Origin: Lolium rigidum
Lineage: Eukaryota; Streptophyta; Magnoliopsida; Poales; Poaceae
DNA: 64,000 nucleotides
Direction: 5' to 3'
Assembly: GCF_022539505.1 (NCBI RefSeq)
Contig: NC_061510.1
Location: forward strand, 264,377,687-264,441,686
Both the position numbers and the translations under genes were made by a program. Every line of letters begins with the position of its first letter. Within the stretch, counting starts at the first letter, position 1. The notes under the pieces were generated by a model. That model made no database searches. It saw nothing but the letters and a program-made list of their open reading frames with translations, and was not told where the DNA came from. Below are positions 1-57,824 of the stretch, piece after piece.

Positions 1-1776
1 CTCAATTATGGTGTTACACTCAAGTTAGTTGAGGCAACACTTGAGTTTGAGAGAGAGAACTATCCATATACCCAGATGATAATATCATCATTGATTAAGT
101 AGAACCCTAACATAATATCTCAGGCATTCTCCTGGGATATAAACTAAAGAGACAACCATAGTAGTCCCATCCAAGAAAGTAAATTAGAAGTGCTATACCT
201 TGATTGATCTAGACAATGCTTGATCATGGAAGTGAGAACCCATTTAATGAGAGATCCCTAGGAATCCAAACCTTGATCATTATAAATTGAGTGATGATCA
301 TAAACCCTAAGAACTTGAGGTAAAAATGTTAAGAACAAGATGATCATGCCTAATCCATGATCATGCTCTTGAGGTATTGAGGATAAACCCTAAAAGGATA
401 AGTAGATATCCTTCACCACATGAAATCATAGGGAGGTAATTAATAAGCAACCCTAAGCTTATATCCCAACCTTAACTTGTGAATCACTTGGTGATCATAA
501 GTAGAATCCTACCATATCTACATTCCACTTATTCCTCACCTAAGAAGCATAAGAAAACCTTAGAGTCAAACTCCATATTTAATATGGTGAGAAACCATCC
601 ATCCATATGACCAAGGTTAACTATAAAAAGAACTATAACAACTTTAGTTACTTTAATGATAAATTGAGGATATCAATAGAAGTTAATTGGGAGAAGACAA
701 AACTAATTCTCAAGTCCTTAGTAATTAAAGAAGCACATGAACAATTAAGCAAGTAATCATATTACCTTGGTTAGGGGAGATTAAACTCTAGCAAATGCAA
801 TATGATGTCATCTCAATTCTACAAACTATAATTATGTCTCAACCCTAGTTTATGTATCACTATGGTGATCATAATATAAACCTAGGCCATAACTGAGATT
901 CAAACCAATTGCCATTAGGTAAATATCATTAGAACCCTAGTATGGCACATTAATAAAATCTTAACCTATAATTATTAAACCTGAGAAAACTCTTGTGATA
1001 CATCTTCTAATTAGAACCATAAGTGTGATTAACAACCACTTATCTTTATAAACAAAGTCCAACCATGAGGAGAGTAATGTCTACTCTAGGTAATTCAAAG
1101 TGTTATTAAAATATAATATTAGTGCTAACCATGACATAGAGTGATAATCAAAATTACAAGATCTTAAGAAATAGAGGATCACATAAAATCATATGCAGGG
1201 AACTAAATTCTCAGTTAAGAGCTCAAACCCTAATGATAAATTCTAAAACACTTAGAGTAGAAATTATCAACCCTAATAATTCAAAATAGATTTGATTACA
1301 CAAGAAAAAGGAAATTAAAATGAGTGCATAAAATCATGATTAATTACAATTTGTAATAAAGCTCACATATGTGAAATGTTTAATCAAAACAATTAAGTAT
1401 TACAATAATACTTTTATTAGTCTTCATACAAGACCAATTGTTTAACACCTGCAATATAGAAAATAGTTAAAACATGAATTATAAACAGAATTCAAAACAA
1501 TGAATAAAACAGAAAATAAAAAGAAAACAGGAAAGAAAAGAGAATGGGGCTTACCTGGACCTTGCCAGCCGCAGAAGCCCAGCAAGGCAGCCCAGCAGCA
1601 GCCCAGAACCGAACCACTTAGCAGCCCGAATACCCCTTCGTTAAAATAACGAGGAGGAGGTCATCCTCATCCCTTCCTCACGCATGGAGGCCACCGAGAC
1701 GCCGTGCTCCTCTTCTCCTCGCCGCTGGCAAGCTCTGCTCGATTGAATTCGTGACGAGGCACACGCCCAGGCACCG

Positions 1777-1784
1777 TATAAAAG
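1777..1784 (+). promoter_or_regulatory. LTR promoter, TATA box TATAAAAG (5' LTR)
   Basis: TATAAAAG is followed within about 30 bases by ACGAACCCTAACGCC and a long CT repeat, the look of a plant transcription start and 5' leader. The same element is at 21698-21705 in the 3' LTR. If transcription starts near 1810, U3 is about 2.7 kb and R plus U5 about 3.8 kb. A consensus-like 5' splice site (CGCG|GTGAGCC) is at 2075-2076, so a spliced leader is possible. Confidence 0.6.
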
Positions 1785-4700
1785 CACTGGACGAACCCTA
1801 ACGCCGACCTCTCTCTCTCTCTCTGTCTCCATTTTTCCCCCAAATTGAAACCCTGGCCGACCCGGCCATCTCCAATCGCCGCCGGTGGAGACCTCCCCTG
1901 GTCAAGCCGTAGCCACCATCGTCTTCGCCGTCCTCGACATGTTCACGGTGCAAAAGGAATTGAGCCGAAGCGTCCTGCAACGCCCTCACCGAGCTCGCCA
2001 TTCCGACGGCCGGAGCCATGAATTCCGGCGAACCAGGCCTCCATCGACCTCGTCGTCACGCGCGTCGTACTCGCGGTGAGCCACTCCACCTCGTGGCAAG
2101 CTCGCTTTGCTCGATTACACGCTGTAGCGCCACCGCATCGCTAGCCCGTGAGCACCTCCGAAGCACCACGTCGCCGGCCACCCTCCGGTGACCATTCGGA
2201 GGGGGCGCCGCCACTATTAGGTTCGCCTTGTTCCCCTGGATCCAACGAGCACACGCAGAGCCCCGCGGAAACCCTCCATCGCCGGCGTCGTCCTTGACTG
2301 GCCGCCGGTGGTGCACTTGGTTGCCACGTTGGCACCACGTGGTAACCAACGTGGCCATAGGCCCACCAGTCAGCCTCTCTGTGTAGGTTCAACCGTGTAC
2401 CTTTAGCCGTTTTTCATTTAAATCTAATTCCAGAAAATTGCTGCAACTTCAAATAAATTTAGAAAATCCAATTTAAGTCAGAAAAATATAAATGAGATAT
2501 TAAAATTCTTAGAAAAGTAAACTCTATACAATAAAAATATAATATGAAATTTTTATAAAAATTCAATTATTTAATACTTGTTAATTAAGCCTTTTCTTTT
2601 AATCCTAAATGCAATTAAAATTCAATAATTAGGAAAACTACCTAAAATAAATAAAAAAAACCAGAAAGTAAATAAGGAAAACATTAAAATCAATTTTTCC
2701 TGTATTATTAACTTATTAAATCCTTATCAGGAGGATTTCAAATCCTAATTAATAATTACCCTAATTAGTAAATTATTTAAAAATAGTAAAAAGCCAAATT
2801 AAATATTATTTTATTTTGAATTTATTAATAACTTCAACTTTATTAATGAAGTTATTAACTTGTGAACTAGATGGTAATTATGCAACACTAATTCCATATG
2901 GTAGAAAACTAGGAACTCATCATTTAATGTGAAACCTAAAACCCTAAATTCAATTAGGAACCCTAGTTCCATTATTACATGTGAACCCTAAATGGTTCCA
3001 AACCTAAAACCAAGTTAACATGTGATCATGATACCTTCCTTTCAAACATAGAACAATAATAGCAACTAAATAATTTCCATGACCACATAAAATGTAGAAT
3101 ACCTATCACTAATATATGGGTATCCCATGTGTTCATCCTCATTAGACCTAACTAATCAAGTGGGGGTCAACCAAGTGAAAACCCTAAATCCTATTACCAA
3201 AGCCATCATCATTATTTATCCCTATTTAGCATCACACCATTGTGATGAACCCTAATAGCAACCATACCTACTATTTTACATTACATAACCCTGTTCCACT
3301 AAACCCTACTAGTATGAGATACTTGTGAACCATCCTATTTAGGAACCAACCATTCTCTACTTAGTGAATTCAATAGCAAACCCTAGACAACCTCAACCCT
3401 AATTGATAAACTTCTTATTATTTAAGAAGTATGTTCTTCAAAAGTTATTCTTTTGAAGTAAATAAAAAATCATCATCAACCCTGCTTATAAGGACCTATA
3501 AACCCTAGCTAGCTATCACCAATAAGATGAACCAGTCCTGATAGAAACCTTGTATGAATAATTGCTTAGGATACCTAGGCTTAACTCAACCCTACAAGCC
3601 CTTGGTGTTGATGAATCCAACTAGGTTGTGATCCATCTAATCCTTACTCTAGAAACCAATTAGAACCATAGAAAACCATAGAACCCCACAAACCTAATTA
3701 TCATACTTGTTCTTTATTAAAGAACATGTTCTTCAAAAGTTATTCTTTTGAAGTATATGATAATTAATCATTAACCATACCATGTAGTGTTAAAACCAAC
3801 CACTATCCATTACATGTTAGGATTATACCAAATGTTATTGTTGTGTGCTATTAATGCTATTGTTATGATATGTTGCAACACTTGTTTATGATACCATGTA
3901 ACCGCACCTGAATAAGAACCTTGTTTGCGAACCATCTAAAAGTGCAACACACGTTGAACTAATCATTACAACCCACTAATCCTAAATCATCGGGGTTAGA
4001 TCACGCTTAGAGCGATTGCATCTCATACTTATGCATTATTGCATCCTTGCCAATCTTTTAAACATCGTCCTTACCGGACGATGATGCTATTTCAGAATTT
4101 GGAGTTATTGCGTATCGAAGACCTTGACTGCATAATCTTGCAGTCAAGAAAGGCAAGTTCATCGCTTGCTCATGTCATTTGAGTATTTTTACCAAATTAC
4201 TTGCAAAGTACTATGTTTATGACTATTGCATAAAAAGAAAAACCACTATTTTCATAACTATGAATATGACTATGTGGTGGGCAATGGAACCATGGATTGT
4301 GTTGATATGGTGGAGGTTCCATTGCAAGGGCTTATATCCATCTAGGATTCAACAAAAAATGTCGTCCAGTGATTCTTGTGCCGTAATACCCGTGTTAACC
4401 ATAAGATCTGGAGTGGGACGGAGTAGTCAAAAGTGTTTCCACCTCTCATACATCAACGGACGCGCTTTACCGTAGACACTTGTATCTGTCAGGGGCAAGC
4501 GGTAGGCTAGGGAAGCCTTAAGTCCCCACGGCATTGTTCGTAGACACTTGTCGCCCGAAGAACAAGCGGTAGGCTGGGGAAGCCTTAAGTCCACACGGTA
4601 TTGCGGTCTATGATGGGTTGCAGCTACCGGCGAAGGATTTTGGTTAACGAGTCCCAAAATGTCGTCGTGGTCGGGGTCCACCCTGAAATCTATGGGAATA

Positions 4701-5243
4701 ATGGGACCGGCGTGGACCCAGGGTCGGGGTATGCAACAAAGGGTGGGTGTGCGAGGTAGCGGAGGAACATGATTGGCTAGACCTTATACCGGGCCTCACA
4801 CCAAAGGAAGTGTGGACGAGAACATGACTCGGTTGGCACCAAGGTTAAGATAAAGCAACACACCTCTGCAGAGTGTAATGAATCGTGACCTGTCACTCCC
4901 TGTTCCAGGATATGGAACTGTGAACGCTGCCGGAAAGGAACTCCATGAAGTTCTAGTAAACCGGTGAAGGCTGACGGACATAGTTCTTCTGAATAAAAGC
5001 AACCTTTTTAAGAAATGGTTATGAAAACCTGCATTGGTATTAGACTCTCTGGTCTAATATCGTAGCTAGTGCATTAAACACCTCTTTCCTATAATGAACT
5101 TGTTGAGTACGCTCGTACTCATCCCACTCTTAAATCCCCTGCTTAGATATGGAGGCATCGATGGAGGATCTAGAGTGGAACTCGAAGGCCTTGGAGTCAA
5201 TAACTACTTCAAGGGCCGGGACCCTGTCAGAGGAGTCAGATAC

Positions 5244-6933
5244 TGATACGTTAATTTGTTATGTTCCATGCCACATTATTGATGATATCTACATGTTTTA
5301 TGCATACTTTATGTCATATTTATGCGTTTTCCGGAACTAACCTATTGACGAGATGCCGAAGGGCCAGTTCCTGTTTTCTCGCTGTTTTTGGTTCCAGAAA
5401 TCCTAGTAAGGAAATATTCTCGGAATCGGACGAAATCAAGACCCAGCATCCTATTTTTCCACAAAGCTTCCAGAACAGCCGAGAGTCGCCAGAGGGGGGC
5501 CACTGGGCCCCCATATGATAGGCCGGCGCGGCCCAGGCCCTGGCCGTGCCGCCTTATGGTGCCACCGCCTCGTCGCCCTTCCGACTCCGCCTCTTCGCCT
5601 ATATAAAGGTCCCAGACCTAAAACCTCGATACGAAAAAGCCACGGTACGAGAAACCTTCCAAAGCCGCCGCCATCGCGAAGCCAAGATCTGGGGGACAGG
5701 AGTCTCTGTTCCGGCACGCCGCCGGAACGGGGAAGTGCCCCCGGAAGGCTCCTCCATCGACACCACCGCCATCTTCATCAACGCTGCTGTCTCCCATGAG
5801 GAGGGAGTAGTTCTCCATCAAGGCTCGGGGCTGTACCGGTAGCTATGTGGTTCATCTCTCTCCTATGTACTTCAATACAATAATCTCATGAGCTACCTTA
5901 CATGATTGAGATTCATATGATGATGCTTGTAATCTAGATGTCGTTATGCTAGTCAAGTGAATTTTACTTATGTGATCTCCGGAGACTCCTTGTCCCACGT
6001 GTGTAAAGGTGACAGTGTGTGCACCGTGTGGGTCTCTTAGGCTATATTTCACATAATACTTATTCACTGTTATGAATGGCGTAGTGAAGTGCTTATTTAT
6101 ATCTCTTTATGATTGCAATGTGTTTTGTATCATAATTTATCTATGTGCTACTCTAGTGATGTTATTAAAGTAGTTTATTCCTCCTGCACGGTGTAATGGT
6201 GACAGTGTGTGCATCCGTGTTAGTACTTGGCGTAGGCTATGATTATGATCTCTTGTAGATTGTGAAGTTAACTATTGCTATGATGGTATTGATGTGATCT
6301 ATTCCTCCTACATAGTGTGAAGGTGACAGTGTGCATGCTGTCTTAGTACTTGGTTTAGTCGTGTTGATCTTTCATGCACTCTAAGGTTATTTAAATATGA
6401 ACATTGAATTGTGGAGCTTGTTAACTCCGGCATTGAGGGTTCGTGTAATCCTACGCAATGTGTTCATCATCCAACAAGAGTGTAGAGTATGCATTTATCT
6501 ATTCTCGTTATGTGATCAAAGTTGAGAGTGTCCACTAGTGAAAGTCTAATCCCTAGGCCTTGTTCCTAAATATCGCTATCGCTTGCTAGTTTACTTGTTT
6601 TATCTGCGTTACTACTGCTGCCATATTACCACCATCAACTACACGCCGACAAGCTATTTTCCGGCGCCGTTACTACTGCTCATATTCATTCATACCACCT
6701 GTATTTCACTATCTCTTCGCCGAACTAGTGCACCTATTAGGTGTGTTGGGGACACAAGAGACTTCTTGCTTTGTGGTTGCAGGGTTGCATGAAAGGGATA
6801 TCTTTGACCTCTTCCTCCCTGAGTTCGATAAACCTTGGGTGATCCACTTAAGGGAAACTTGCTGCTGTTCTACAAACCTCTGCTCTTGGAGGCCCAACAC
6901 TGTCTACAAGAATAGAAGCTCCCGTAGACATCA
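5244..6933 (+). mobile_element. Solo LTR, type A (1690 bp), nested in the LARD 5' LTR
   Basis: It starts TGATACG and ends GACATCA, and is flanked by the 5-bp duplication GATAC at 5239-5243 and 6934-6938. The LARD 3' LTR keeps the empty site with a single GATAC near 25250. It is closely similar to the LTR at 52706-54421, but with no interior, so it arose by LTR-LTR recombination. A TATATAAAG box is at about 5600, and a GC-rich inverted repeat lies upstream at 5521-5553. Three copies of an AGGTGACAGTGTG motif lie between 5995 and 6352. Confidence 0.92.
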
Positions 6934-7309
6934 GATACCACATCCAACAAGGAGAAAACCTAGATTAGCCATAGAAAGGAACTAGCTTCCTAAACATAGC
7001 TCCTATTTAGCTAGAATCTATTCGTAGCCCCTATAGCTAGTCAAATACTCTACAAATAGAGTTCGTGATAAGATTAGACTACGAGTCGTTCTTCTGGAGT
7101 TTATCTGCAGATTTACCTCATTGTAAAGTAGGAGGCTGTGCTGATCTTATGTAACAGAGTCTGTATGTAATTCTATAGACCTGCCTTGGACCCGCATATG
7201 TTTCTGTTGTACCACTCTGAGCGATATAATACTAGTGGAACGGTGTTTCATTGGTGTTATATCAGACTTGCATACTACACCATGCAGTGGTATGCCGGGT
7301 CACCACAGC

Positions 7310-7321
7310 TGGTATCAGAGC
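7310..7321 (+). other. Primer-binding site of the LARD, initiator tRNA-Met type
   Basis: TGGTATCAGAGC lies two bases after the end of the 5' LTR. This 12-mer is complementary to the 3' end of plant initiator tRNA-Met and is the usual primer site of many plant LTR retrotransposons. It fixes the element on the plus strand and marks the LTR end at 7307. Confidence 0.9.
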
Positions 7322-9095: not shown

Positions 9096-9760
9096 GTCAA
9101 ATAACTATGACCTATAATCATTTAGTCGAAGGATTCACATTGGATGTCCACAATTGAGTGGATATACCACAAAGATTCTTCGCAAAACCTTAGAGGAATA
9201 TAAATCATAAACAAGACCTAGAATAACATTCCAACCATAAGTCCAATGGTTGGAAGAATAGGAGTTGAAGACCATAAGAAAACTCTAAGGGGTAGAGTAA
9301 ACATTGAGTTGGATGTACAATAACTCAATATTTTGAGCAAGATAGATGATGAAGGTCTGAACTGGGAGGTAGTTCGATCTTATTTTCATAAGATTATCAA
9401 ACACTACTTTCAGAAGGATGTCAGACCAGAAGCCGAGATTTATACCTCGAGGAAGTAAGAAGTGGACTATAACTTGAGAAAGTGAGTAGTAGTTACTCAG
9501 AAGTACGAAAGCTCAAGTAAGTCAAGCATAAAGAAGTTGGACGAAGAAAATACCATAGACCAAATACAGCTCAAGAAGGCCAAAGACTGAAGTAGATTGA
9601 CCATACCAAAAATCAAAGACAAATAGAATGATTCCTTTCATGGAACCTAAAGAACCTAAAATAGTTATAGATATCAATTATAAACCATGATTGGATGGAC
9701 TAATTGAGTCTAACCCATTCTTAGAGGAAATTAAACCATCACAATCATTTCCATGGTAAG

Positions 9761-11437
9761 TGATACGTCTCCGACGTATCGATTATTTCTTATGTTCTAT
9801 GCCATATTATTGATGATACCTACATGTTTTATGCACACTTTATGTCATATTCGTGCATTTTCTGGAACTAACCTATTAACAAGATGCCGAAGTGCCGATT
9901 CTGTTTTCTGCTGTTTTTGGTTTCAGAAATCCTAGTAACGAAATATTCTCGGAATTGGACGAAATTAAAGCCCGGGGGCCTATTTTCTCACGAAGCTTCC
10001 GGAAGTCCGAAGGAGAGACGAAGAGGGGCCACGGAGGGGCCACACTATAGGGCGGCGCGGCCCCCTTGGCCGCGCGGCCCGTGGTGTGGGGCCCCCGTGC
10101 CGCCTCTTGACCTACCCTTCCGCCTACAAATAGCCTCCGTGACGAAACCCCCGAGTACCGAGAGCCACGATACGGAAAACCTTACTGAGACGCCGTCGCC
10201 GCCGATCCCATCTCGGGGGATCCAGGAGATCGCCTCCGGCACCCTGCCGGAGAGGGGAATCATCTCCTGGAGGACTCTACGCCGCCATGGTCGCCTCCGG
10301 TGTGATGAGTGAGTAGTCTACCCCTGGACTATGGGTCCATAGCGGTAGCTAGATGGTTGTCTTCTCCCCATTGTGCTATCATTGTCGGATCTTGTGAGCT
10401 GCCTAACATGATCAAGATCATCTATCCGTAATTCTATATGTTGTGTTTGTCGGGATCCGATGGATAGAGAATACTATGTCATGTTAATTATCAAGTTATT
10501 ATACATGTGTTGTTTATGATCTTGCATGCTCTCCGTTTCTAGTAGAGGCTCGGCCAAGTTTTTACTTTTAACTCCAAGAGGGAGTACTTATGCTCGATAG
10601 TGGGTTCATGCCCGCATTGACACCGGGACAGTGACGAAAGTTCTAAGGTTGTGTTGTGCTTGTTGCCACTAGGGATAAAACATTGATGCTATGTTCGAGG
10701 ATGTAGTTATTGATTACATTACGCACCATACTTAATGCAATTGTCTGTTGTTTAGCAACTTAATACCGGAGGGGTTCGGACGATAACCTGAAGGTGGACT
10801 TTTTAGGCATAGATGCAGTTGGATGGCGGTCTATGTACTTTGTCGTAATGCCCAATTAAATCTCACTATACTTATCATGTCATGTATGTGCATTGTTATG
10901 CCCTCTCTATTTGTCAATTGCCCGACTGTAATTTGTTCACCCAACATGCTTTTATCTTATGGGAGAGACACCTCTAGTGAACTGTGGACCCCGGTCCATT
11001 CTTTAATACTTGAAATACAAATCTGCTTGCAATACTCGTTTTTACTGTTTTCTCTGCAAACAATCATCTTCCACACAATACGGTTAATCCTTTGTTACAG
11101 CAAGCCGGTGAGATTGACAACCTCACTATTTCGTTGGGGCAAAGTACTTTGGTTGTGTTGTGCAGGTTCCACGTTGGCGCCGGAATCTCCGGTGTTGCGC
11201 CGCACTACATCCCGCCGCCATCAACCTTCAACGTGCTTCTTGGCTCCTCCCGGTTCGATAAACCTTGGTTTCTTTCGAGGGAAAACTTGCTGCTGTGCGC
11301 ATCATACCTTCCTCTTGGGGTTGCCCAAAGAACGTGTGAAATACACGCCATCAAGCATATTTTCTCGGCGCCGTTGGCGGGGAACTGAAGAAAAGCTACA
11401 CCACAAAGATTTCTAACTCCCACGTCAACTACGCACC
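9761..11437 (+). repeat. 5' LTR, type B, extended form
   Basis: It matches 14911-16592 throughout. The family end as seen in the solo LTR at 48439-50030 corresponds to 11353 (GCCATCA). Here the LTR continues through a former primer-binding site (11366-11383) and leader to 11437. A weak TATA-like CTACAAATAG is at about 10124, and the GC inverted repeat is at 10051-10080. Confidence 0.85.
11366..11383 (+). other. Former primer-binding site now inside the extended LTR (tRNA-Asp type)
   Basis: CGGCGCCGTTGGCGGGGA differs at two positions from the tRNA-Asp complement TGGCGCCGTTGCCGGGGA. In the 3' LTR copy (16519-16536) the site is a perfect match. It lies 12 bases after the ancestral LTR end CATCA, the distance seen at 54421-54450. 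Because target duplications lie beyond it, it is now LTR sequence. Confidence 0.8.
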
Positions 11438-11450
11438 GAGCATATTTTCT

Positions 11451-11468
11451 CGGCGCCGTTGCCGGGGA
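11451..11468 (+). other. Probable active primer-binding site of the type B element (tRNA-Asp type)
   Basis: CGGCGCCGTTGCCGGGGA follows the second copy of the AGCATATTTTCT leader and differs from the tRNA-Asp complement only in its first base. Priming here gives an LTR that ends at 11437, which matches the integrated 3' end at 16592. Confidence 0.75.
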
Positions 11469-11677
11469 GATCAAGACACGCTTGCAAGGGGAGTCTCCAC
11501 TTCTCAATCTCTTTACTTTGTTTTTGTCTTGCTTTATTTTATTTACTACTTTGTTTGCTGCACTTATATCAAAACACAAAAAAATTAGTTGCTAGCTTTA
11601 CTTTATTTGCTATCTTGTTTGCTATATCAAAAACACAAAAAAATTAGTTTACTTGCATTTACTTTACTTATTTCATC

Positions 11678-12322
11678 ATGTTTCCTTTTAATTTTACCGC
11701 AAAGAACATACCGGTAGGACAAGGGTCTATAATTGGGAGGAACAATATAGAAGAATTTTTCACCCATGTTAGTACCGTTGAAGATTTCGAAGATAGACAC
11801 TTGGTAGACCTTGCTCCCACCTATGAAATTGCTGCTGCTGCTTTAGTTCGCCTGTTGGAAACTAAATTTGTTAATCTCAATCCTATAATCCAACACATGT
11901 TTCTTACACTTGGTGATTTGGAAGAGGGGGAAAAGAAAGATTTTGTTTTAGAAACCCTTCTTAGAGAATTTGGTGGTCTAGCAAGAGAGGCTAGAAAGGT
12001 CTTTGCTAAATTTAATATGCTTGGTTCTCATACTAATTTTGTTAGCCTCCTTGAAAAAATGGATATGGATAGGATAAGGTACACTAATAATGCTAATGAT
12101 GGTGGGGAGATCAAAGCACCAATACCATGTAAACTCCTAGCTATGAATGATGCACTAGAAAATAACTATGCTTGGCTTGTTCCTGAAAATTTGTTCGATG
12201 AGAGTAGCAAGCCCAAGACTAATGAGAAGGGAGATGCTGAAACTTATGTACCTAATATATTATGCATGGTCGAGAAAACTTCAAACCCCGCTGTAGGTGC
12301 ACCACCCTTCGATAATACTTGA
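11678..12322 (+). CDS. Retroelement-borne open frame of unknown function, 214 aa
   Basis: The frame starts with an ATG after an A/T-rich leader with two CAAAAACACAAAAAAATTAG-like repeats and stops at 12322. The product starts MFPFNFTAKN, is acidic and mostly alpha-helical in look, and has no zinc knuckle, protease, RT or integrase motif. It sits where gag would be. Two stretches look helical: a central one with LLETKFVNLNPIIQ and one with LREFGGLAREARKVFAKFN. I do not recognise a family beyond 'frame found in non-autonomous grass retroelements'. It may be a gag remnant, a captured host fragment or a packaging-related frame. Frame integrity suggests recent origin or selection; the two cannot be separated here. 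Confidence 0.55.
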   Translation: MFPFNFTAKNIPVGQGSIIGRNNIEEFFTHVSTVEDFEDRHLVDLAPTYEIAAAALVRLLETKFVNLNPIIQHMFLTLGDLEEGEKKDFVLETLLREFGGLAREARKVFAKFNMLGSHTNFVSLLEKMDMDRIRYTNNANDGGEIKAPIPCKLLAMNDALENNYAWLVPENLFDESSKPKTNEKGDAETYVPNILCMVEKTSNPAVGAPPFDNT

Positions 12323-14893
12323 GATACACTTTCCGCGCCTAGCTGAAAGGCGTTAAAGAAAAGCGCTTATGGGAGACAACCCATGTTTTTACCTACAGTA
12401 CTTTGTTTTATATTTGTGTCTTGGAAGTTGTTTACTACTGTAGCAACCTCTCCTTATCTTAGTTTTGTGTTTTGTAGTACCAAGTAAAGTCTTTGATAGA
12501 AAAGTAAGTACTAGATTTGGATTACTGCGCAGAAACAGATTTCTTTGCTGTCACGAATCTGGGTCTAATTCTCTGTAGGTAACTCAGAAAATTATGCCAA
12601 TTTACGTGAGTGATCCTCAGATATGTACGCAACTTTCATTCAATTTGAGCATTTTCGTTTGAGCAAGTCTGGTGGCCTAATAAAATCCATCTTTACGGAC
12701 TGTTCTGTTTTGACAGATTCTGTCTTTTATTTCGCATTGCCTCTTTTGCTATGTTGGATGAATTTATTTGATCCATTAATGTCCAGTAGCTTTATGCAAT
12801 GTCCAGAAGTGTTAAGAATGATTGTGTCACCTCTGAACATGTGGATTTTTATTATGAACTAACCCTCTAATGAGTTGTTTCGAGTTTGGTGTGGAGGAAG
12901 TTTTCAAGGATCAAGAGAGGAGTATGATGCAATATGATTAAGGAGAGTGAAAGCTCTAAGCTTGGGGATGCCCCGGTGGTTCACCCCTGCATATATTAAG
13001 AAGACTCAAGCGTCTAAGCTTGGGGATGCCCAAGGCATCCCCTTCTTCATCGACAACATTATCGGGTTCCTCCCCCGAAACTATATTTTTATTCGGCCAC
13101 ATCTTATGTACTTTGCTTGGAGCGTCGGTTTGTTTTTGTTTTTTGTTTTGTTTGAATAAAATGGATCCTAGCATTCACTTTATGGGAGAGAGACACGCTC
13201 CGCTGTTGCATATGGACAAATATGTCCTTAGGTTCTACTCATAGTATTCATGGCGAAGTTTCTCCTTCGTTAAATTGTTATATGGTTGGAATTGGAAAAT
13301 GCTACATGTAGTAACTCTAAAATGTCTTGGATAATTTGATACTTGGCAATTGTTGTGCTCATGTTTAAGCTCTTGCATCATATACTTTGCACCCATTAAT
13401 GAAGAAATACTTAGAGCTTGCTAATTTGGTTTGCATATTTGGTTTCTCTAGAGTCTAGATAACATCTAGTATTGAGTTTTGAACAACAAGGAAGACGGTA
13501 TGGAGTCTTATAATGTTTACCATATGTCTTTTATGTGAGTTTTGCTGTACCGTTCATCCTTGTGTTTGTTTCAAATAACCTTGCTAGCCTAAACCTTGTA
13601 TCGAGAGGGAATACTTCTCATGCATCCAAAATCCTTGAGCCAACCACTATGCCATTTGTGTCCACCATACCTACCTACTACATGGTATTTATCCGCCATT
13701 CCAAAGTAAATTGCTTGAGTGCTACCTTTAAAATTCCATCATTCACCTTTGCAATATATAGCTCATGGGACAAATAGCTTAAAAACTATTGTAGTATTGA
13801 ATATGTACTTATGCACTTTATCTCTTATTAAGTTGCTTGTTGAGCGATAACCATGTTTACGGGGACGCCATCAACTATTCCTTGTTGGATATCATGTGAG
13901 TTGCTATGCATGTCCGTCTTGTCTGAAGCAAGAGAGATCTACCACCTTCATGGTTGGAGCATGCATATTGTTAGAGAAGAACTTTGGGCCGCTAACTAAA
14001 GCCATGATTCATGGTGGAAGTTTCAGTCTTGGACATATATCCTCAATCTCATATGAGAATAAAAATTGTTGCCACATGCTTATGCATTAAAGAGGAGTCC
14101 ATTATCTGTTGTCCATGTTGTCCCGGTATGGATGTCTAAGTTGAGAATAATCAAAAGCGAGAAATCCAAAATGCGAGCTTTCTCCTTAGACCTTTGTACA
14201 GGCGGCATGGAGGTACCCCATTGTGACACTTGGTCAAAACATGTGCATTGCAAAGATCCGGTAGTCCAAGTTAATTAGGACAAGGTGCGGGCACTATTAG
14301 TATACTATGCATGAGACTTGCAACTTGTAAGATATAATGTCCATAACTCATATGCTTTATTACTACCGTTGACAAAATTGTTTCATGTTTTCAAAATAAA
14401 AGCTCTAGCACAAATATAGCAATCGATGCTTTCCTCTTTGAAGGACCATTCTCTTTACTTTTATGTTGAGTCAGTTCACCTATTTCTCTCCACCTCAAGA
14501 AGCAAACACTTGTGTGAACCGTGCATTGATTCTTACATACTTGCATATTGTACTTGTTATATTACTCTATGTTGACTATTATCCATGAGATATACATGTT
14601 ACAAGTTGAAAGCAACCGCTGAAACTTAATCTTCCTTTGTGTTGTTTCAATACCTTTACTTTGATTTATTGCTTTATGAGTTAACTCTTATGCAAGACTT
14701 ATTAATGCTTGTCTTGAAGTACTATTCATGAAAAGTCTTTGCTTTATGATTCAATTGTTTACTCATGTCATCACCATTGTTATGATCGCTGCATCCACTA
14801 CATATGTTTACAAATAGTATGATCAAGGTTATGATGGCATATCACTTCAGAAATTATCTTTGTTATCATTTTACTCGCTCGGGACGAGCGGAA
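12323..14893 (+). other. Long 3' non-coding region of the type B element
   Basis: This region has no sustained frame and is nearly identical to 55240-57807 in the type A element; a diverged version is at 25626-27544. It contains two internal copies of the purine-tract motif CTAAGCTTGGGGATGCC (12956-12972 and 13014-13030). The second is part of a perfect 9-bp hairpin. Conservation across elements with different 5' frames suggests a cis-acting role such as RNA packaging or plus-strand priming. Confidence 0.7.
13022..13042 (+). other. Conserved RNA hairpin, arms GGGGATGCC / GGCATCCCC, loop CAA
   Basis: A perfect 9-bp stem with a 3-base loop overlaps the second internal purine-tract copy. The same hairpin is at 25793-25813 and 55937-55957 in the two other elements, with an identical stem and loop. 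Confidence 0.65.
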
Positions 14894-14910
14894 CTAAGCT
14901 TGGGGATGCT
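14894..14910 (+). other. Polypurine tract of the type B element
   Basis: CTAAGCTTGGGGATGCT directly precedes the 3' LTR start TGATACG at 14911. This is the expected plus-strand primer position. The same motif precedes the 3' LTRs at 27561 and 57825. Confidence 0.75.
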
Positions 14911-16592
14911 TGATACGTCTCCGACGTATCGATAATTTCTTATGTTCTATGCCATATTATTGATGATACCTACATGTTTTATGCACACTTTATGTCATAT
15001 TCGTGCATTTTCCGGAACTAACCTATTAACAAGATGCCGAAGTGCCGATTCGTCGTTTTCTGCTGTTTTTGGTTTCGAAATCCTAGTAACGAAATATTCT
15101 CGGAATTGGACGAAATTAAAGCCCGGGGGCCTATTTTCTCACGAAGCTTCCGAAGTCCGAAGGAGAGACGAAGAGGGGCCACGGAGGGGCCACACTATAG
15201 GGCGGCGCGGCCCCCTTGGCCGCGCGGCCCTGTGGTGTGGGGCCCCGTGCCGCCTCTTGACCTACCCTTCCGCCTACAAATAGCCTCCGTGACGAAACCC
15301 CCGAGTACCGAGAGCCACGATACGGAAAACCTTACTGAGACGCCGTCGCCGCCGATCCCATCTCGGGGGATCCAGGAGATCGCCTCCGGCACCCTGCCGG
15401 AGAGGGGAATCATCTCCTGGAGGACTCTACGCCGCCATGGTCGCCTCCGGTGTGATGAGTGAGTAGTCTACCCCTGGACTATGGGTCCATAGCAGTAGCT
15501 AGATGGTTGTCTTCTCCCCATTGTGCTATCATTGTCGGATCTTGTGAGCTGCCTAACATGATCAAGATCATCTATCCGTAATTCTATATGTTGTGTTTGT
15601 CGGGATCCGATGGATAGAGAATACTATGTCATGTTAATTATCAAGTTATTATACATGTGTTGTTTATGATCTTGCATGCTCTCCGTTTCTAGTAGAGGCT
15701 CTGGCCAAGTTTTTACTTTTAACTCCAAGAGGGAGTACTTATGCTCGATAGTGGGTTCATGCCCGCATTGACACCGGGACAGTGACAGAAAGTTCTAAGG
15801 TTGTGTTGTGCTGTTGCCACTAGGGATAAAACATTGATGCTATGTTCGAGGATGTAGTTATTGATTACATTACGCACCATACTTAATGCAATTGTCTGTT
15901 GTTTAGCAACTTAATACTGGAGGGGGTTCGGATGATAACCTGAAGGTGGACTTTTTAGGCATAGATGCAGTTGGATGGCGGTCTATGTACTTTGTCGTAA
16001 TGCCCAATTAAATCTCACTATACTTATCATGTCATGTATGTGCATTGTTATGCCCTCTCTATTTGTCAATTGCCCGATTGTAATTTGTTCACCCAACATG
16101 CTTTTATCTTATGGGAGAGACACCTCTAGTGAACTGTGGACCCCGGTCCATTCTTTAATACTCGAAATACAAATCTGCTCGCAATACTCGTTTTTACTGT
16201 TTTCTCTGCAAACAATCATCTTCCACACAATACGGTTAATCCTTTGTTACAGCAAGCCGGTGAGATTGACAACCTCACTCTGTTTCGTTGGGGCAAAGTA
16301 CTTTGGTTGTGTTGTGCAGGTTCCACGTTGGCACCGGAATCTCCGGTGTTGCGCCGCACTACATCCCGCCGCCATCAACCTTCAACGTGCTTCTTGGCTC
16401 CTCCCGGTTCGATAAACCTTGGTTTCTTTCCGAGGGAAAACTTGCTGCTGTGCGCATCATACCTTCCTCTTGGGGTTGCCCAACGAACGTGTGAAATACA
16501 CGCCATCAAGCATATTTTCTGGCGCCGTTGCCGGGGAACTGAAGAAAAGCTACACCACAAAGATTTCTAACTCCCACGTCAACTACGCACCA
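14911..16592 (+). repeat. 3' LTR, type B, extended form
   Basis: It matches 9761-11437 and ends CGCACCA before the target duplication GTAAG. It contains a perfect tRNA-Asp primer-site complement at 16519-16536, which is abnormal for the interior of an LTR. The GC inverted repeat is at 15201-15230. Confidence 0.88.
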
Positions 16593-16597
16593 GTAAG

Positions 16598-17344: not shown

Positions 17345-18744
17345 TGATGACCCACAAGTATAGGGGATCGCAACAGTCTTTGCGGGAAGTAAAACCCAAT
17401 TTATTGATTCGACACAAGGGGAGACAAAGAATACTTGAAAGCCTTAACAACGGAGTTGTCAATTCAGCTGCACCTGGAAACAGACTTGCTCGCAAGAGTT
17501 TATCAGTAGTAACAGTTTTATAGTAGTAGCAGTAGTAAAATAACAGCAGCAGAGTAACAAAGACAGCAGTAGTGATTATGGTAAACAGCAGGATTAAAAT
17601 ACTGTAGGCACGGGGACGGATGACGGGCGTTGCATGGATGAGAGAAACTCATGTAACAATCAAGCAGGGGCATATGCAGATAATAATAAAACGGTATCTA
17701 AGTACTAATCAATCAATAGGCATGTGTTCCAATTATAGTCGTACGTGCTCGCAATGAGAAACTTGCACAACATCTTTTGTCCTACCAGCCGGTGGCAGCC
17801 GGGCCTCTAGGGAAACTATCGGATATTAAGGTACTCCTTTTAATAGAGTACCGGAGCAAAGCATTAACACTTCGTGAATACATGTGATCCTCACATCACT
17901 ACCATCCCCTCCGGTTGTCCCGATTTGCATCACTTCGGGGCCATTGGTTCCGGACAGCGACATGTGTATACAACTTGCAGGTAAGACCATAAACAATGAA
18001 TATCATGATGAAACAATAACATGTTCAGATCTGAGATCATGGCACTCGGGCCCTAGTGACAAGCATTAAGCACAACAAGTTGCAACAATATCATAAAAGT
18101 AACATCTACGGATACTAGGCACTATGCCCTAACAATCTTATGACTATTACATGACCAATCTCATCCAATCCCTACCATCCCCTTCAGCCTACAGCGGGGA
18201 AATTACTCACACATGGATGGGGGAAACATGGCTGGTCGATGGAGAGGCGTCTGTGGTGATGATGGCGATGATCTCCTCCAATTCCCCGTCCCGGCGGAGT
18301 GCCAAAACGGAGACTTCTGGCTCCCGAGACGGAGTTTCGCGATGTGGCGGCGTTCTGGAGGGTTTCTGGCAACTTCGACTTCTCCCCGTGCGTTTTTAGG
18401 TCGAAGGCAATAAGTAGTCCGAAGGAGGGCGTCGGGGGCCAGCCGAGGCTGCCACACACTAGGGCCGCGCGGGCCCCTCCTGGGCCGCGCCGGCCTAGTG
18501 TGTGGGGCCCTCGTGCCCCCACCTAGCTTGCCCTTCTAGCTCCGTAAGTATTCTGGGAAAATAGGGCCTTCTGTCAAAATCCCGAGGTTTTTCCTGAAAG
18601 TTGGATTTCTGCACAAAAACAAGACACCAGAGCAATTCTGCTGAAAACAGCGTTAGTCCGTGTTAGTTGTATCCAAAATACACAAATTAGAGACAAAACA
18701 ATAGCAAAAGTGTTCGGGAAAGTAGATACGTTTTGGACGTATCA
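17345..18744 (-). repeat. 3' LTR, type D (1400 bp), minus strand
   Basis: Its terminal 81 bp (18664-18744) match 19285-19365 with one mismatch, which defines the LTR. The GC inverted repeat is at about 18463-18495, with long outer arms CCACACACTAGG / CCTAGTGTGTGG. Confidence 0.85.
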
Positions 18745-19184: not shown

Positions 19185-19284
19185 NNNNNNNNNNNNNNNN
19201 NNNNNNNNNNNNNNNNNNNNNNNNNNNNNNNNNNNNNNNNNNNNNNNNNNNNNNNNNNNNNNNNNNNNNNNNNNNNNNNNNNNN
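19185..19284. other. Assembly gap, 100 Ns
   Basis: Exactly 100 Ns suggests a placeholder of unknown true length. It hides most of the interior and 5' LTR of the minus-strand element. Frames that run into the Ns are artefacts. Confidence 0.98.
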
Positions 19285-22200
19285 TAGTTGTATCCAAAAT
19301 ACACAAATTAGAGACAAAACAATAGCAAAAGTGTTTGGGAAAGTAGATACGTTTTGGACGTATCACCATAACATATGAACATCCATTTAATTGGAAATCA
19401 AGTAACAATAAAATGGAGAAACCATTCTTGATTATCTTTTCCATGTCTTAAACAAATCCATGATCCTACCATGAACCTCATGGTATTCATATTATTTCAT
19501 TCTTGGAAACATAACAAGGAGATCCACTCTAGAAATATATATCCTTCTCTATTCCATATTCTTGTACATCAAACCTAGAGAGGTGAGAGTTCTATAACAA
19601 TTATTAGAGAAGCAATAACAAACCTTGAGCTAAACCTTGGATATACATCCAAGTATTCAAATCATCATTTTTAAGAGGAACCTTAGGATATTATTCAAGA
19701 CATTCCTAGAGAAAGAAACCATTTATGTTAAACATAGATATTGATGAACACATCAATCCCTGTGGAGCCTAACCTTAAGTTAGTATTAAAGTCCTTTCCA
19801 AAATGAGAGAGACCAATCATACAAATCATAGCTTTATCTATTTAAGAATAAAGGACAACCATTGAACTAGAGTATTAGGAGTACACCATAATCTAGAATG
19901 ATCCATTCTTATATAAGAGAGCTCAATTATGGTGTTACACTCAAGTTAGTTGAGGCAACACTTGAGTTTGAGGGAGAGAACTATCCATATACCAAGATGA
20001 TAATATCATCATTGATTAAGTAGAACCCTAACATAATATCTTAGGCATTCTCCTGGGATATAAACTAAAGAGACAACCATAGTAGTCCCATCCAAGAAAG
20101 TAAATTAGAAGTGCTATACCTTGATTGATCTAGACAATGCTTGATCATGGAACTGAGAACCCATTTAATGAGAGATCCCTAGGAATCCAAACCTTGATCA
20201 TTATAAATTGAGTGATGATCATAAACCCTAAGAACTTGAGGTAAAAATGTTAAGAACAAGATGATCATGCCTAATCCATGATCATGCTCTTGAGGTATTG
20301 AGGATAAACCCTAAAAGGATAAGTAGATATCCTTCACCACATGAAATCATAGGGAGGTAATTAATAAGCAACCCTAAGCTTATATCCCAACCTTAACTTG
20401 TGAATCACTTGGTGATCATAAGTAGAATCCTACCATATCTACATTCCACTTATTCCTCACCTAAGAAGCATAAGAAAACCTTAGAGTCAAACTCCATATT
20501 TAATATGGTGAGAAACCATCCATCCATATGACCAAGGTTAACTATAAAAAGAACTATAACAACTTTAGTTACTTTAATGATAAATTGAGGATATCAATAG
20601 AAGTTAATTGGGAGAAGACAAAACTAATTCTCAAGTCCTTAGTAATTAAAGGAGCACATGAACAATTAAGCAAGTAATCATATTACCTTGGTTAGGGGAG
20701 ATTAAACTCTAGCAAATGCAATATGATGTCATCTCAATTCTACAAACTAGAATTATGTCTCAACCCTAGTTTATGTATCACTATGGTGATCATAATATAA
20801 ACCTAGGCCATAACTGAGATTCAAACCAATTGCCATTAGGTAAATATCATTAGAACCCTAGTATGGCACATTAATAAAATCTTAACCTATAATTATTAAA
20901 CCTGAGAAAACTCTTGTGATACATCTTATAATTAGAACCATAAGTGTGATTAACAACCACTTATCTTTATAACCAAAGTCCAACCATGAGGAGAGTAATG
21001 TCTACTCTAGGTAATTCAAAGTGTTATTAAAATATAATATTAGTGCTAACCTTGACATAGAGTGATAATCAGAATTACAAGATCTTAAGAAATAGAGGAT
21101 CACATAAAATCATATGCAGGGAACTAAATTCTCAGTTAAGAGCTCAAACCCTAATGATAAATTCTAAAACACTTAGAGTAGAAATTATCAACCCTAATAA
21201 TTCAAAATAGATTTGATTACACAAGAAAAAGGAAATTAAAATGAGTGCATAAAATCATGATTAATTACAATTTGTAATAAAGCTCACATATGTGAAATGT
21301 TTAATCAAAACAATTAAGTATTACAATAATACTTTTATTAGTCTTCATACAAGACCAATTGTTTAACACCTGCAATATAGAAAATAGTTAAAACATGAAT
21401 TATAAACAGAATTCAAAACAATGAATAAAATAGAAAATAAAAAGAAAACAGGAAAGAAAAGAGAATGGGGCTTACCTGGACCTTGCCAGCCGCAGAAGCC
21501 CAGCAAGGCAGCCCAGCAGCAGCCCAGAACCGAACCACTTAGCAGCCCGAATACCCCTTCGTTAAAATAACGAGGAGGAGGTCGTCCTCATCCCTTCCTC
21601 ACGCATGGAGGCCACCGAGACGCCGTGCTCCTCTTCTCCTCGCCGCTGGCAAGCTCTGCTCGATCGAATTCGTGACGAGGCACGCGCCCAGGCACCGTAT
21701 AAAAGCCCTGGACGAACCCTAACGCCGACCTCTCTCTCTCTCTCTCTCTCCATTTTTCCCCCAAATTGAAACCCTGGCCGACCCGGCCATCTCCAATCGC
21801 CGCCGGTGGAGACCTCCCCTGGTCAAGCCGTAGCCACCATCGTCTTCGCCGTCCTCGACATGTTCACGGTACAAAAGGAATTGAGCCGAAGCGTCCTGCA
21901 ACGCCCTCACCGAGCTCGCCATTCCGACGGCCGGAGCCATGAATTCCGGCGAACCAGGCCTCCATCGACCTCGCCGTCACGCGCGTCGTACTCGCGGTGA
22001 GCCACTCCACCTCGTGGCAAGGTCGCTTTGCTCGATTACACGCTGTAGCGCCGCCGCATCGCTAGCCCGTGAGCACCTCCGCAGCACCACGTCGCCGGCC
22101 ACCCTCCGGTGACCATTCGGAGGGGGCGCCGCCACTATTAGGTTCGCCTTGTTCCCCTGGATCCAACGAGCACACGCAGAGCCCCGCGGAAACCCTCCAT

Positions 22201-22497
22201 CGCCGGCGTCGTCCTTGACTGGCCGCCGGTGGTGCACTTGGTTGCCACGTTGGCACCACGTGGTAACCAACGTGGCCATAGGCCCACCGATCGACCTCTC
22301 TCGTGTAGGTTCAACCGTGTACCTTTAGCCGTTTTTCATTTAAATCTAATTCCAGAAAATGCTGCAACTTCAAATAAATCTAGAAAATCCAATTTAAGTC
22401 AGAAAAATATAAATGAGATATTAAAATTCTTAGAAAAGTAAACTCTATACAATAAAAATATAATATGAAATTTTTATAAAAAATCAATTATTTAATA

Positions 22498-22579
22498 CTC
22501 CCTCCGTTCTTTTTTAATTGACTCGGATTTAGTAAAAATTTGTACTAAATCCGAGTCAATTAAAAAGGAACGGAGGGAG
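22498..22579. mobile_element. Stowaway MITE (82 bp) in the LARD 3' LTR
   Basis: CTCCCTCCGTTC starts it and GAACGGAGGGAG ends it, with TA duplications at 22496-22497 and 22580-22581. The arms are nearly perfect over about 36 bases, so the whole element folds into one hairpin. The 5' LTR of the same LARD has the empty site near 2575, so this MITE moved after the LARD inserted. Confidence 0.95.
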
Positions 22580-25500
22580 TACTTGTTAATTAAGCCTTTT
22601 CTTTTAATCCTAAATGCAATTAAAATTCAATAATTAGGAAAACTACCTAAAATAAATAAAAAACCAGAAAGTAAATAAGGAAAACATTAAAATTATTTTT
22701 TCCTTTATTATTAACTTATTAAATCCTTATCAGGAGGATTTCAAATCCTAATTAATAATTACCCTAATTAGTAAATTATTTAAAAATAGTAAAAAGCCAA
22801 ATTAAATATTATTTTATTTTGAATTTATTAATAACTTCAACTTTATTAATGAAGTTATTAACTTGTGAACTAGATGGTAATTATGCAACACTAATTCCAT
22901 ATGGTAGAAAACTAGGAACTCATCATTTAATGTGAAACCTAAAACCCTAAATTCAATTAGGAACCCTAGTTCCATTATTACATGTGAACCCTAAATGGTT
23001 CCAAACCTAAAACCAAGTTAACATGTGATCATGATACCTTCCTTTCAAACATAGAACAATAATAGCAACTAAATAATTGCCATGACCACATAAAATGTAG
23101 AATACCTATCACTAATATATGGGTATCCCATGTGTTCATCCTCATCAGACCTAACTAATCAAGTGGGGTCAACCAAGTGAAAACCCTAAATCCTATTACC
23201 AAAGCCATCATCATTATTTATCCCTATTTAGCATCACACCATTGTGATGAACCCTAATAGCAACCATACCTACTATTTTACATTACATAACCCTGTTCCA
23301 CTAAACCCTACTAGTATGAGATACTTGTGAACCATCCTATTTAGGAACCAACCATTCTCTACTTAGTGAATTCAATAGCAAACCCTAGACAACCTCAACC
23401 CTAATTGATAAACTTCTTATTATTTAAGAAGTATGTTCTTCAAAAGTTATTATTTTGAAGTAAATAAAAAATCATCATCAACCCTGCTTATAAGGACCTA
23501 TAAACCCTAGCTAGCTATCACCAATAAGATGAACCAGTCCTGATAGCAACCTTGTATGAATAATTGCTTAGGATACCTAGGCTTAACTCAACCCTACAAG
23601 CCCTTGGTGTTGATGAATCCAACTAGGTTGTGATCCATCTAATCCTTACTCCAGAAACCAATTAGAACCATAGAAAACCATAGAACCCCACAAACCTAAT
23701 TATCATACTTGTTCTTTATTAAAGAACATGTTCTTCAAAAGTTATTCTTTTGAAGTATATGATAATTAATCATTAACCATACCATGTAGTGTGAAAACCA
23801 ACCACTATCCATTACATGTTAGGATTATACCAAATGTTATTGTTGTGTGCTATTAATGCTATTGTTATGATATGTCGCAACACTTGTTTATGATAACATG
23901 TAACCGCACCTGAATAAGAACCTTGTTTGCGAACCATCTAAAAGTGCAACACACGTTGAACTAATCATTACAACCCACCAATCCCAAATCATCGGGGTTA
24001 GATCACGCTTAGAGTGATTGCATCTCATACTTATGCATTATTGCATCCTTGCCAATCTTTTAAACATCGTCCTTACCGGACGATGATGCTATTTCAGAAT
24101 TTGGAGTTATTGCGTATCGAAGACCTTGACTGCATAATCTTGCAGTAAAGAAAGGCAAGTTCATCGCTTGCTCATGTCATTTGAGTATCTTTACCAAATT
24201 ACTTGCAAAGTACTATGTTTATGACTATTGCATAAAAAGCAAAACCACTATTTTCATAACTATGAATATGACTATGTGGTGGGCAATGGAACCATGGATT
24301 GTGTTGATATGGTGGAGGTTCCATTGCAAGGGCTTATATCCATCTAGGATTAAACAACAAATGTCGTCCGGTGATTCTTGTGTCGTAATACCCGTGTTAA
24401 CCATAAGATCCGGAGTGGGACGGAGTAGTCAAAAGTGTTTCCACCTCTCGTACATCAACGGACGCACTTTACCGTAGACACTTGTATCTGTCAGGGACAA
24501 GCGGTAGGCTGGGGAAGCCTTAAGTCCCCACGGCATTGTCCGTAGACACTTGTCGCCCGAAGAATAAGCGGTAGGCTGGGGAAGCCTTAAGTCCCCACGG
24601 TATTGCGGTCTATGATGGGTTGCACCTACCGGCGAAGGAGTTTGGTTAACGAGTCCCAAACTGTCGTCGTGGTCGGGGTCCACCCTGAAATCTATGGGAA
24701 TAATGGGACCGGCGTGGACCCAGGGTCGGGGTATGCAACAAAGGGTGGGTGTGCGAGGTAGCGGAGGAACATGATTGGCTAGACCATATACCGGGCCTCA
24801 CACCAAAGGAAGTGTGGACGAGAACATGACTCGGTTGGCACCAAGGTTAAGATCTCTTATGGGTAAAGCAACACACCTCTCGCGAGTGTAATGAATCGTG
24901 ACTCGTCACTCCTCGTTCCGGGATATGGAACTGTGAACGCTGCCGGAAAGGAACTCCATGAAGTTCTAGTAAACCGGTGACGGCTGACGGACATAGTTCT
25001 TCTGAATAAAAGCAACCTTTTGAAGAAATGGTTATGAAAACCTGCATTGGTATTAGACTCTCTGGTCCAATATCGTAGCTAGTGCATTAAACACCTCTTT
25101 CCTATAATGAACTTGTTGAGTACGCTCGTACTCATCCCACTCTTAAATCCCCTGCTTAGATATGGAGGCATCGATGGAGGATCTACAGTGGAACTCGAAG
25201 GCCGAGGAGTCAATAACTACTTCAAGGGCCAGGACCCTGTCAGAGGAGTCAGATACCACATCCAACAAGGAGAAAACCTAGATTAGCCATAGAAAGGAAC
25301 TAGCTTCCTAAACATAGCTCCTATTTAGCTAGAATCTATTCGTAGCCCCTATAGCTAGTCAAATACTCTACAAATAGAGTTCGTGATAAGATTAGACTAC
25401 GAGTCGTTCTTCCGGAGTTTATCTGCGATTTACCTCATTGTAAAGTAGGAGGTCTGTCTTGATCTTATGTAACAGAGTCTGTATGTAATTCTATAGACCT

Positions 25501-25625
25501 GCCTTGGACCCGCATATGTTTCTGTTGTACCACTCTGAGCGATATAATACTAGTGGAACGGTGTTTCATTGGTGTTATATCAGACTTGCATACTACACCA
25601 TGCAGTGGCATGCCGGGTCACCACA

Positions 25626-47388: not shown

Positions 47389-47672
47389 AAACCCCGTGGT
47401 AGATGGTAGGCCCACACGAGGCCCGCCACGTCTTAGCGGGCCGGCCCATTAAGTTTGCGGGCCGGGCTAGCCGACTTAGTTTGACCGGTCAACTATATAG
47501 CCGGGCTGGTCCATTAGTTACGTGGGCCGGGCCTAACCTCTAAGGTTGATCGGTCAAAACATTAATGGGCCGGCCCACTAAGCATGTGGGCCGGGCCGAA
47601 TGCACTCGTTTGACCGGTCAACAGGCAAAAGGGCCGGCCCACAAAACATGTAGGACCCACTTTCCTTTTATT

Positions 47673-48436
47673 GGGCCGGCCCATTTACCAAGTGGGGTCC
47701 ACCGTAAAGCAAGTGGGTCGGCCCAAGAAGTTATTGGGCCGGCCCAATTAGCCTGTGGGTCCCATTTTCCTCCTATAGGGCCGGCCCATTTAGTATGTGG
47801 GGTCCACCATATAGCAAGTGGGCCGGCCCAACAAGCCAGTGGGCCGGGCCAAAATCACATGTGGGTCCCACTTTCCTGTTAACGGGCCGGCCCATTTAGT
47901 ACGTGGGGTCCACCATATAGCAAGTGGGCCGGCCCAACAAGTTAGTGGGCCGGGCCAAAAACACAGGTGGGTCCCACTTTCCAGTTAAAGAGCCGGCCCA
48001 TTTAGTATGTGGGGTCCACCATAACGTAATTGGGCTGGCCCAACACGCTAGTGGGCCGGGCCAAAAATACAGGTGGGTCCCACATTCCTGCTAAAAGGCC
48101 GGCCCATTGAGCAAGTGGGGTCCACGATATAGCAAGTGGGCCAGCCCAATAAGATAGTGGGCCGGGCCAAGAACACTGGTGGGTCCCACATTCCTGTTAA
48201 AGGGCCGGCCCAGTTTGTAAGTGGGGTCCACCTTATAGCAAGTGGGCCGGCCCAACAAGATAGTGGGCCGGGCCAAAAACACAGGTGGGTCCCACTTTCC
48301 TCTTAAAGGGCCGACCCATTTAGTATGTGGGATCCACCACAAAAGCAATTGGCTGGCCCAACTAGTTAGTGGGCCGGCCCAGTAGTGGGTGGGGTCCACC
48401 TTAAAGCAAGTGGGCCGGCCCAATTAGAGTGTGGGG
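47673..48436. repeat. Subterminal tandem array, 106-bp unit, about seven copies
   Basis: GGGCCGGCCC-type starts lie at 47673, 47778, 47884, 47990, 48096, 48202 and 48308, a period of 105-106 bp, then at 48371. Each unit holds GGCCGGCCCA, GTGGGGTCCACC, a second GGGCCGGCCCAA and GTGGGTCCCAC. Subterminal repeats bind transposase in CACTA elements. Confidence 0.9.
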
Positions 48437-48438
48437 TC

Positions 48439-54421: not shown

Positions 54422-54432
54422 AGCTATTTTCA

Positions 54433-54450
54433 CGGCGCCGTTGCCGGGGA
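54433..54450 (+). other. Primer-binding site of the type A element, tRNA-Asp type
   Basis: CGGCGCCGTTGCCGGGGA differs from the tRNA-Asp complement TGGCGCCGTTGCCGGGGA only in its first base. It lies 11 bases after the LTR end. A partial second copy (CGGCGCCGTTG) is at 54499-54509. Confidence 0.8.
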
Positions 54451-54585
54451 GGAAAGGTAAAAGGCACTCATACTCCGGTCTCGGGTAAAGTACTTTTCCG
54501 GCGCCGTTGTGTGTGTGCTCGAAGCTATTTCCTTTAGATCCTGCAATTGCATCTTTTTGTTTCTTGTTTACACTAGTTTGGCATA

Positions 54586-57807: not shown

Positions 57808-57824
57808 CTAAGCTTGGGGATGCT
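57808..57824 (+). other. Polypurine tract of the type A element
   Basis: CTAAGCTTGGGGATGCT directly precedes the 3' LTR start TGATACG at 57825. Confidence 0.75.

Follow-up and report, generated by a model that had tools for sequence, protein, structure and literature searches.

Long and short LTR ends from one layout with two tandem tRNA-Asp primer sites in a retrotransposon lineage of Lolium rigidum

A lineage of LTR retrotransposons in Lolium rigidum integrates with two different LTR ends, a long one and a short one, and both ends integrate with target-site duplications from one and the same 5' layout. Among the copies sampled, nothing suggests that end type is inherited. From the sequences of these copies we estimate a probability of about 85% that the RNA of the lineage keeps two tandem tRNA-Asp primer sites, that either of them can be used, and that the inserted LTR end records which one was chosen. 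The lineage is represented by element A in the window, i.e. the 64,000 nt stretch of contig NC_061510.1 (positions 264,377,687 to 264,441,686) that was analysed.

Element A and its neighbours in the window

Features of the window are collected in Table 1. According to the first-pass annotation, the usual CATCA end of the 5' LTR of element A is followed by leader, a primer site, more leader and then a second leader with its own primer site, and this layout is confirmed. The 3' LTR has the same 84-bp extension, as had also been claimed, and the homology between the two LTRs ends at a single point (11437/16591, blastn). PBS1 of the 3' LTR matches the tRNA-Asp complement at 18/18 positions; the perfect complement noted earlier is thus real, but it lies at 16520-16537 and not at 16519-16536. 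The exact GTAAG pair bears out the view that the long form is what integrated. Past its usual end the 3' LTR continues with AGCAT, which differs from the 5' flank. There are 22 substitutions in 1674 aligned bases between the LTRs, and their termini are TG and CA apart from the last base of the 5' LTR, which is G (11438) where the 3' LTR has A (CACCG vs CACCA). We take both primer sites to be those of tRNA-Asp, judging by the 3' end of that tRNA. The primer-site pattern has five matches in the window at up to 3 mismatches, where shuffled sequence is expected to give 0.04; one of the five (53010, minus strand) is outside any leader.

A primer site after the 5' LTR and a polypurine tract before the 3' LTR are present in element A, but the primer sites are two. 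Apart from the primer sites and the ends, it is an ordinary LTR retrotransposon in the features tested. Since no pol-sized ORF was found among the intact frames of its internal region, element A is probably non-autonomous; gag-pol, which an autonomous element would encode, is absent from these frames. The longest ORF of the internal region has no Pfam match at E up to 1. Element A is presumably kin to the non-autonomous Ty3/gypsy families of grasses (Sabrina, WHAM, Athila-like).

Table 1. Coordinates of the features in the window
Feature	Position	Strand	Remarks
Element A	9761-16592	+	long LTRs, GTAAG on both flanks
5' target-site duplication GTAAG	9756-9760	+	exact match to 3' copy
3' target-site duplication GTAAG	16593-16597	+	exact match to 5' copy
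5' LTR of element A, long form	9761-11438	+	core end 11353
Usual LTR end ACGCCATCA in 5' LTR of element A	11345-11353	+	ends CATCA
First spacer (s1), between CATCA end and PBS1	11354-11365	+	
PBS1, tRNA-Asp complement inside long 5' LTR	11366-11383	+	2 mismatches over first 17 bases
Leader X, 55 bp	11384-11438	+	tail ACTACGCACC similar to U5 end
Second spacer (s2)	11439-11450	+	same type as s1
PBS2, tRNA-Asp complement past long LTR	11451-11468	+	1 mismatch; leader proper then starts
Longest ORF in internal region of element A	11678-12322	+	214 aa
Polypurine-tract region ahead of 3' LTR	14893-14910	+	
3' LTR of element A, long form	14911-16592	+	CACCA end; core end 16508
84-bp extension (s1, PBS1, X) in 3' LTR	16509-16592	+	
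Parts of the 3' LTR extension	s1 16509-16519; PBS1 16520-16537; X 16538-16592	+	
Sibling solo LTR, short end	48439-50030	-	flanks GACTC/GACCC, 4 of 5
Solo LTR of sister type, short end	5244-6933	+	GATAC on both sides; empty site 25252-25256
Element B, up to N gap cutting its 3' LTR	52706-58984	+	leader PBS 54433-54450

The sibling solo LTR ends short and lacks the extension, in agreement with the first-pass annotation; a tandem array of 106-bp units (47619-48438) adjoins it. Element B has in its leader a second, partial PBS-like site, CGGCGCCGTTG (54499-54510, 66 bp on from the first), and no CA tail like that of element A was found just before it. The 3' two thirds of the internal region are common to elements A (11439-14910) and B (54422-57824), with 90-100% identity per 120-base block, and the start of U3 is common as well, while the rest of the LTR and the leader differ. 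To judge by these blocks, A and B are mosaic elements. In sister-type LTRs there are also decayed cassettes of leader and primer site, at 6650-6672 and 54132-54165, roughly 270 bp inside the end of the LTR. The one at 6650-6672 aligns to element B's true leader with its primer site at a score of 20, compared with at most 14 in 200 mononucleotide shuffles and 9 in the rest of the LTR, and the second aligns to the second site of element B with a score of 17 (shuffles at most 14). Such remnants suggest an earlier capture of a primer site.

Two further repeats were seen in the window. A long direct repeat (1-7307 / 19922-25625, pieces 97.7-98.9% identical) has element A between its copies and looks like the LTRs of an outer element; the primer site at 7310-7321, after its first copy, is presumably tRNA-Met-like. 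An 81-bp repeat (18664-18744 / 19285-19365, 98.8% identical) flanks the N gap at 19185-19284.

Long and short ends in the genome

Genome searches were made in the 2.44-Gb assembly that contains the window. In a BLAST-type search with the 84-bp extension, 40 of 723 candidates were scored, giving 43 matches, of which the first 30 were examined as loci. Eighteen of these run on into non-leader sequence, including the window's own 3' LTR, and 12 run on into s2 and a primer site. With up to 2 mismatches allowed, the 25-base tail of the extension is matched 2237 times, tail variants included, and its reversed pattern not once. The exact tail ending in GCACC matches 305 times and the exact variant ending in ACACGCC 1345 times; the first 20 matches of the variant comprise 16 that lead to a primer site and four long ends, of which two have a flank in common. 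The extension is present genome-wide, so the window copy is no one-off. Fixed junction patterns gave 248 matches for the two-site 5' layout (53 bases, tail variants included) and 5259 for the one-site layout (52 bases), numbers that miss indel variants and other spacers and are not frequencies. Outside this genome, the primer-site patterns were not found in two scans of viral contigs, and 97 stretches in prokaryote records that match an 18-mer were taken as chance.

Regarding the long end, flanks were sought for 39 copies (the window copy and sets of 18, 12 and 8). Perfect 5-bp duplications lie directly outside the extended end in 22 of the 23 testable copies, as the first-pass annotation would predict, and in the remaining one (L285/L280) the duplication is offset by one base. 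Eighteen of the 23 end in CACCA and all of these are perfect; the other five end in AGCA, four of them perfect. None of the 506 cross-pairs of flanks from different long copies match. Sixteen of the 39 copies stand outside this count: nine with a polypurine tract upstream, for which the 5' LTR was not fetched, five in which no LTR start was found, one with N in the flank and one false pair. One of these five, L286/L287, was rejected as a long end, as it leads into a primer site. More long ends than these 39 were seen among the tail matches.

The short end occurs on the same layout. Specifically, 26 copies (20 and 6) with the 5' order U5-s1-PBS1-X-s2-primer site were searched for their 3' mate. 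A 3' end was resolved in sixteen, and in all of these it is CATCA followed by non-leader sequence; the 26 copies had been chosen because no long mate was in view, and 16/26 is therefore not a frequency. Short ends of two-site copies have perfect duplications in 12 of 13 testable cases and 4 of 5 bases in the remaining one, with no match among 156 cross-pairs of flanks. One sample was not chosen by outcome, namely the first 30 exact tail matches listed, which come from a single chromosome; of these, 22 proved to be 5' ends and the other 8 long ends. Among the mates of these 22 two-site 5' ends, 15 are resolved, 4 as long and 11 as short; three of the four long mates have tested duplications and one has N in the flank. 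The usual expectation of one LTR boundary per family, itself no formal criterion, does not hold here, as long and short ends go with one layout.

On a tree of LTR bodies (38 LTRs, 26 long and 12 short, outlier L108 removed) end type changes 11 times, compared with a mean of 10.4-10.5 for shuffled labels, and 394-420 of 500 shuffles are as low. A tree with L108 kept (39 rows) gives a like result. The labels are read from the sequence after the LTR, also in copies without a duplication test (e.g. short L150 and L160, and those long copies that stand outside the count of 23). Support is thin, with 9 of 35 inner branches starred, and the starred branches alone force 6 changes.

Choice between two primer sites

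The reading that we favour is as follows. The RNA of the lineage would carry two tRNA-Asp primer sites in tandem, at a spacing of about 85 bp, and each would lie some 10 nt downstream of a CA-ending, U5-like tail, which is CATCA for PBS1 and CACCA or AGCA for PBS2. Priming at PBS1 would give a strong-stop DNA that ends at s1, and after trimming of the spacer to CA a short LTR would integrate. Priming at PBS2 would give a strong-stop DNA that ends at s2 and has PBS1 and X inside; trimmed to the second CA, it would integrate as a long LTR. In the standard pathway of reverse transcription a long 3' end cannot stem from PBS1 priming, because X is absent from the 3' part of the RNA. The RNA both starts and ends in R, so that long and short insertions should give transcripts with the same 5' layout, the choice of primer site should be made anew in each round, and the lack of inheritance on the tree is what one would predict. 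We infer that primer choice is the cause of end type and that the trimming is done by integrase. End trimming in retroviruses is usually 2 nt, and removal of a spacer of about 10 nt would exceed that.

Each of the two LTR ends is about as far from its own primer site as the other. Of 20 copies of the common variant, 16 have ACGCCAGCA as the tail of X, where element A has CTACGCACCA; the U5 tail reads ACACGCCATCA. Since the two tails resemble each other, the duplicated cassette probably brought an integration end and a primer site together. Within copies the two spacers tend to agree: the 76 loci scanned gave 39 copies for comparison, with s1 and s2 both of the major type in 30 and sharing a minor type in 8. 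Agreement in L157 should be ignored, as two unlike minor types were lumped there into one class. The spacers could be homogenised if the nascent strand switches between the two sites, which are similar. The 5' leader of one copy, L113/L114 (G000:C3:207457539-207462919), holds three primer sites and two X units in tandem and its 3' LTR a single extension; the copy has a perfect GTAGC duplication. It could have arisen if a PBS2-primed plus strand annealed to the PBS1 complement on a minus strand copied past PBS2. In L153/L154 (G000:C1:17728593), a different copy, another LTR starts within the second primer site, which breaks off after TTGCCGGG.

Several points count against priming from either site. 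The 3' end was resolved in no more than 16 of 26 two-site copies, no more than 23 of 39 long copies could be tested, one long duplication is off by a base and one short duplication agrees at 4 of 5 bases. In addition, short ends could come from PBS2-primed cDNA if priming is always at PBS2 and the long end is then shortened to the inner CATCA by integrase or nucleases. Both ends are bounded by CA and the spacers indicate that some trimming takes place anyway, which suits such a cut. In the sample taken without regard to outcome, however, precise removal of about 95 nt would be needed in 11 of the 15 resolved copies, and the similar closeness of each end to its own primer site is explained directly by primer choice. 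We consider this explanation unlikely.

It had been proposed in the first-pass annotation that the primer site was duplicated once, that initiation moved to the downstream copy, and that U5 has since included the old site. Initiation at the downstream site fits the long form, and the window copy, like many others, is long with matched duplications. A settled change of U5 does not agree with the short CATCA ends on two-site copies, which contradict permanent growth as the whole story, nor with the scatter of end types over the tree. Together, these two observations indicate that the LTR did not simply grow, and a lineage with long LTRs ever since is a shade less probable than cutting back. An assembly error or chance duplication, despite the many doubtful CHG bases in the LTR pairs of this assembly and some loci with common flanks as if duplicated (L162/L164; L280/L281), is refuted by the tail counts (2237 vs none reversed) and by perfect duplications with differing flanks in 34 of 36 testable copies of both end types, and has next to no probability.

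Regarding base quality, LTR differences are concentrated at CHG contexts: 16 of 24 events in element A, where such contexts make up 0.111 of positions, and 17 of 24 in element B, where they make up 0.116, i.e. 33 of 48 in the two elements. Many of these differences alter or delete the middle base, which deamination of C does not do, and for this reason many of them are likely to be assembly errors at methylated sites. A literature search found nothing plainly on assembly errors at methylated CHG sites. Such errors would make the LTRs look older than they are, and they are relevant to the apparent mismatches in the primer sites at 11366 and 11451. Several primer sites have a C at position 1, which was therefore not accepted as real decay; the CHG pattern makes an assembly artefact likelier.

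Primer-site capture and known systems

Plant Ty3/gypsy elements that use tRNA-Asp have, like the element A lineage, TG...CA LTRs, 5-bp duplications, a tRNA-Asp site and a polypurine tract; the tandem second primer site and the 84-bp end difference set the latter apart. One survey gives 5-bp duplications for 93.4% and tRNA-Asp sites for 6% of plant elements (PMC6317226). The short internal region without a pol-sized ORF is shared with non-autonomous grass Ty3/gypsy families. In einkorn, an autonomous/non-autonomous pair, Cereba and Quinta, has been described with exchange by template switching, and Sabrina and WHAM are named as further non-autonomous cases in that work (PMC11302176).

A natural duplication just downstream of the primer site is known from HIV-1. 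The MAL-type leader, found in 14% of isolates, has a 23-nt insertion that repeats part of the primer site (PMC3185550); that copy is partial, and the available portion of the report describes neither a second start nor a change of LTR length. Two primer sites have been noted for one element group in a Copia cluster of Anopheles (PMC3212995), but these are valine and methionine tRNA sites in different sequences, and no second LTR end is described in the accessible text. In a search of mostly open-access literature, no natural case of an LTR retrotransposon that uses two primer sites and has two LTR ends came up. Retroviral constructs with dual primer sites exist.

A wider reading, tentative and rather less probable than not in our judgement, is that primer-site capture has driven the evolution of LTRs repeatedly in this group. 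U5 tail, spacer and primer site would form a cassette that template switching duplicates; the new cassette would serve as an alternative start, become homogenised with the first copy and at times be fixed in the LTR. It is the older decayed cassettes in sister-type LTRs and the three-site copy, which extends the ladder, that lead us to this reading. As a guess at why two sites are kept, the second site may give resistance to blocking of the primer site by tRNA-derived small RNAs.

The LTR boundaries of a family are normally regarded as fixed. If either primer site can indeed be used, each inserted end records the site that was used, and the genome holds many natural readouts of primer choice in living plants. 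This would also be a warning for annotation and dating pipelines built on a single LTR end and a single primer site, and would suggest how LTRs lengthen and how old primer sites become buried inside them.
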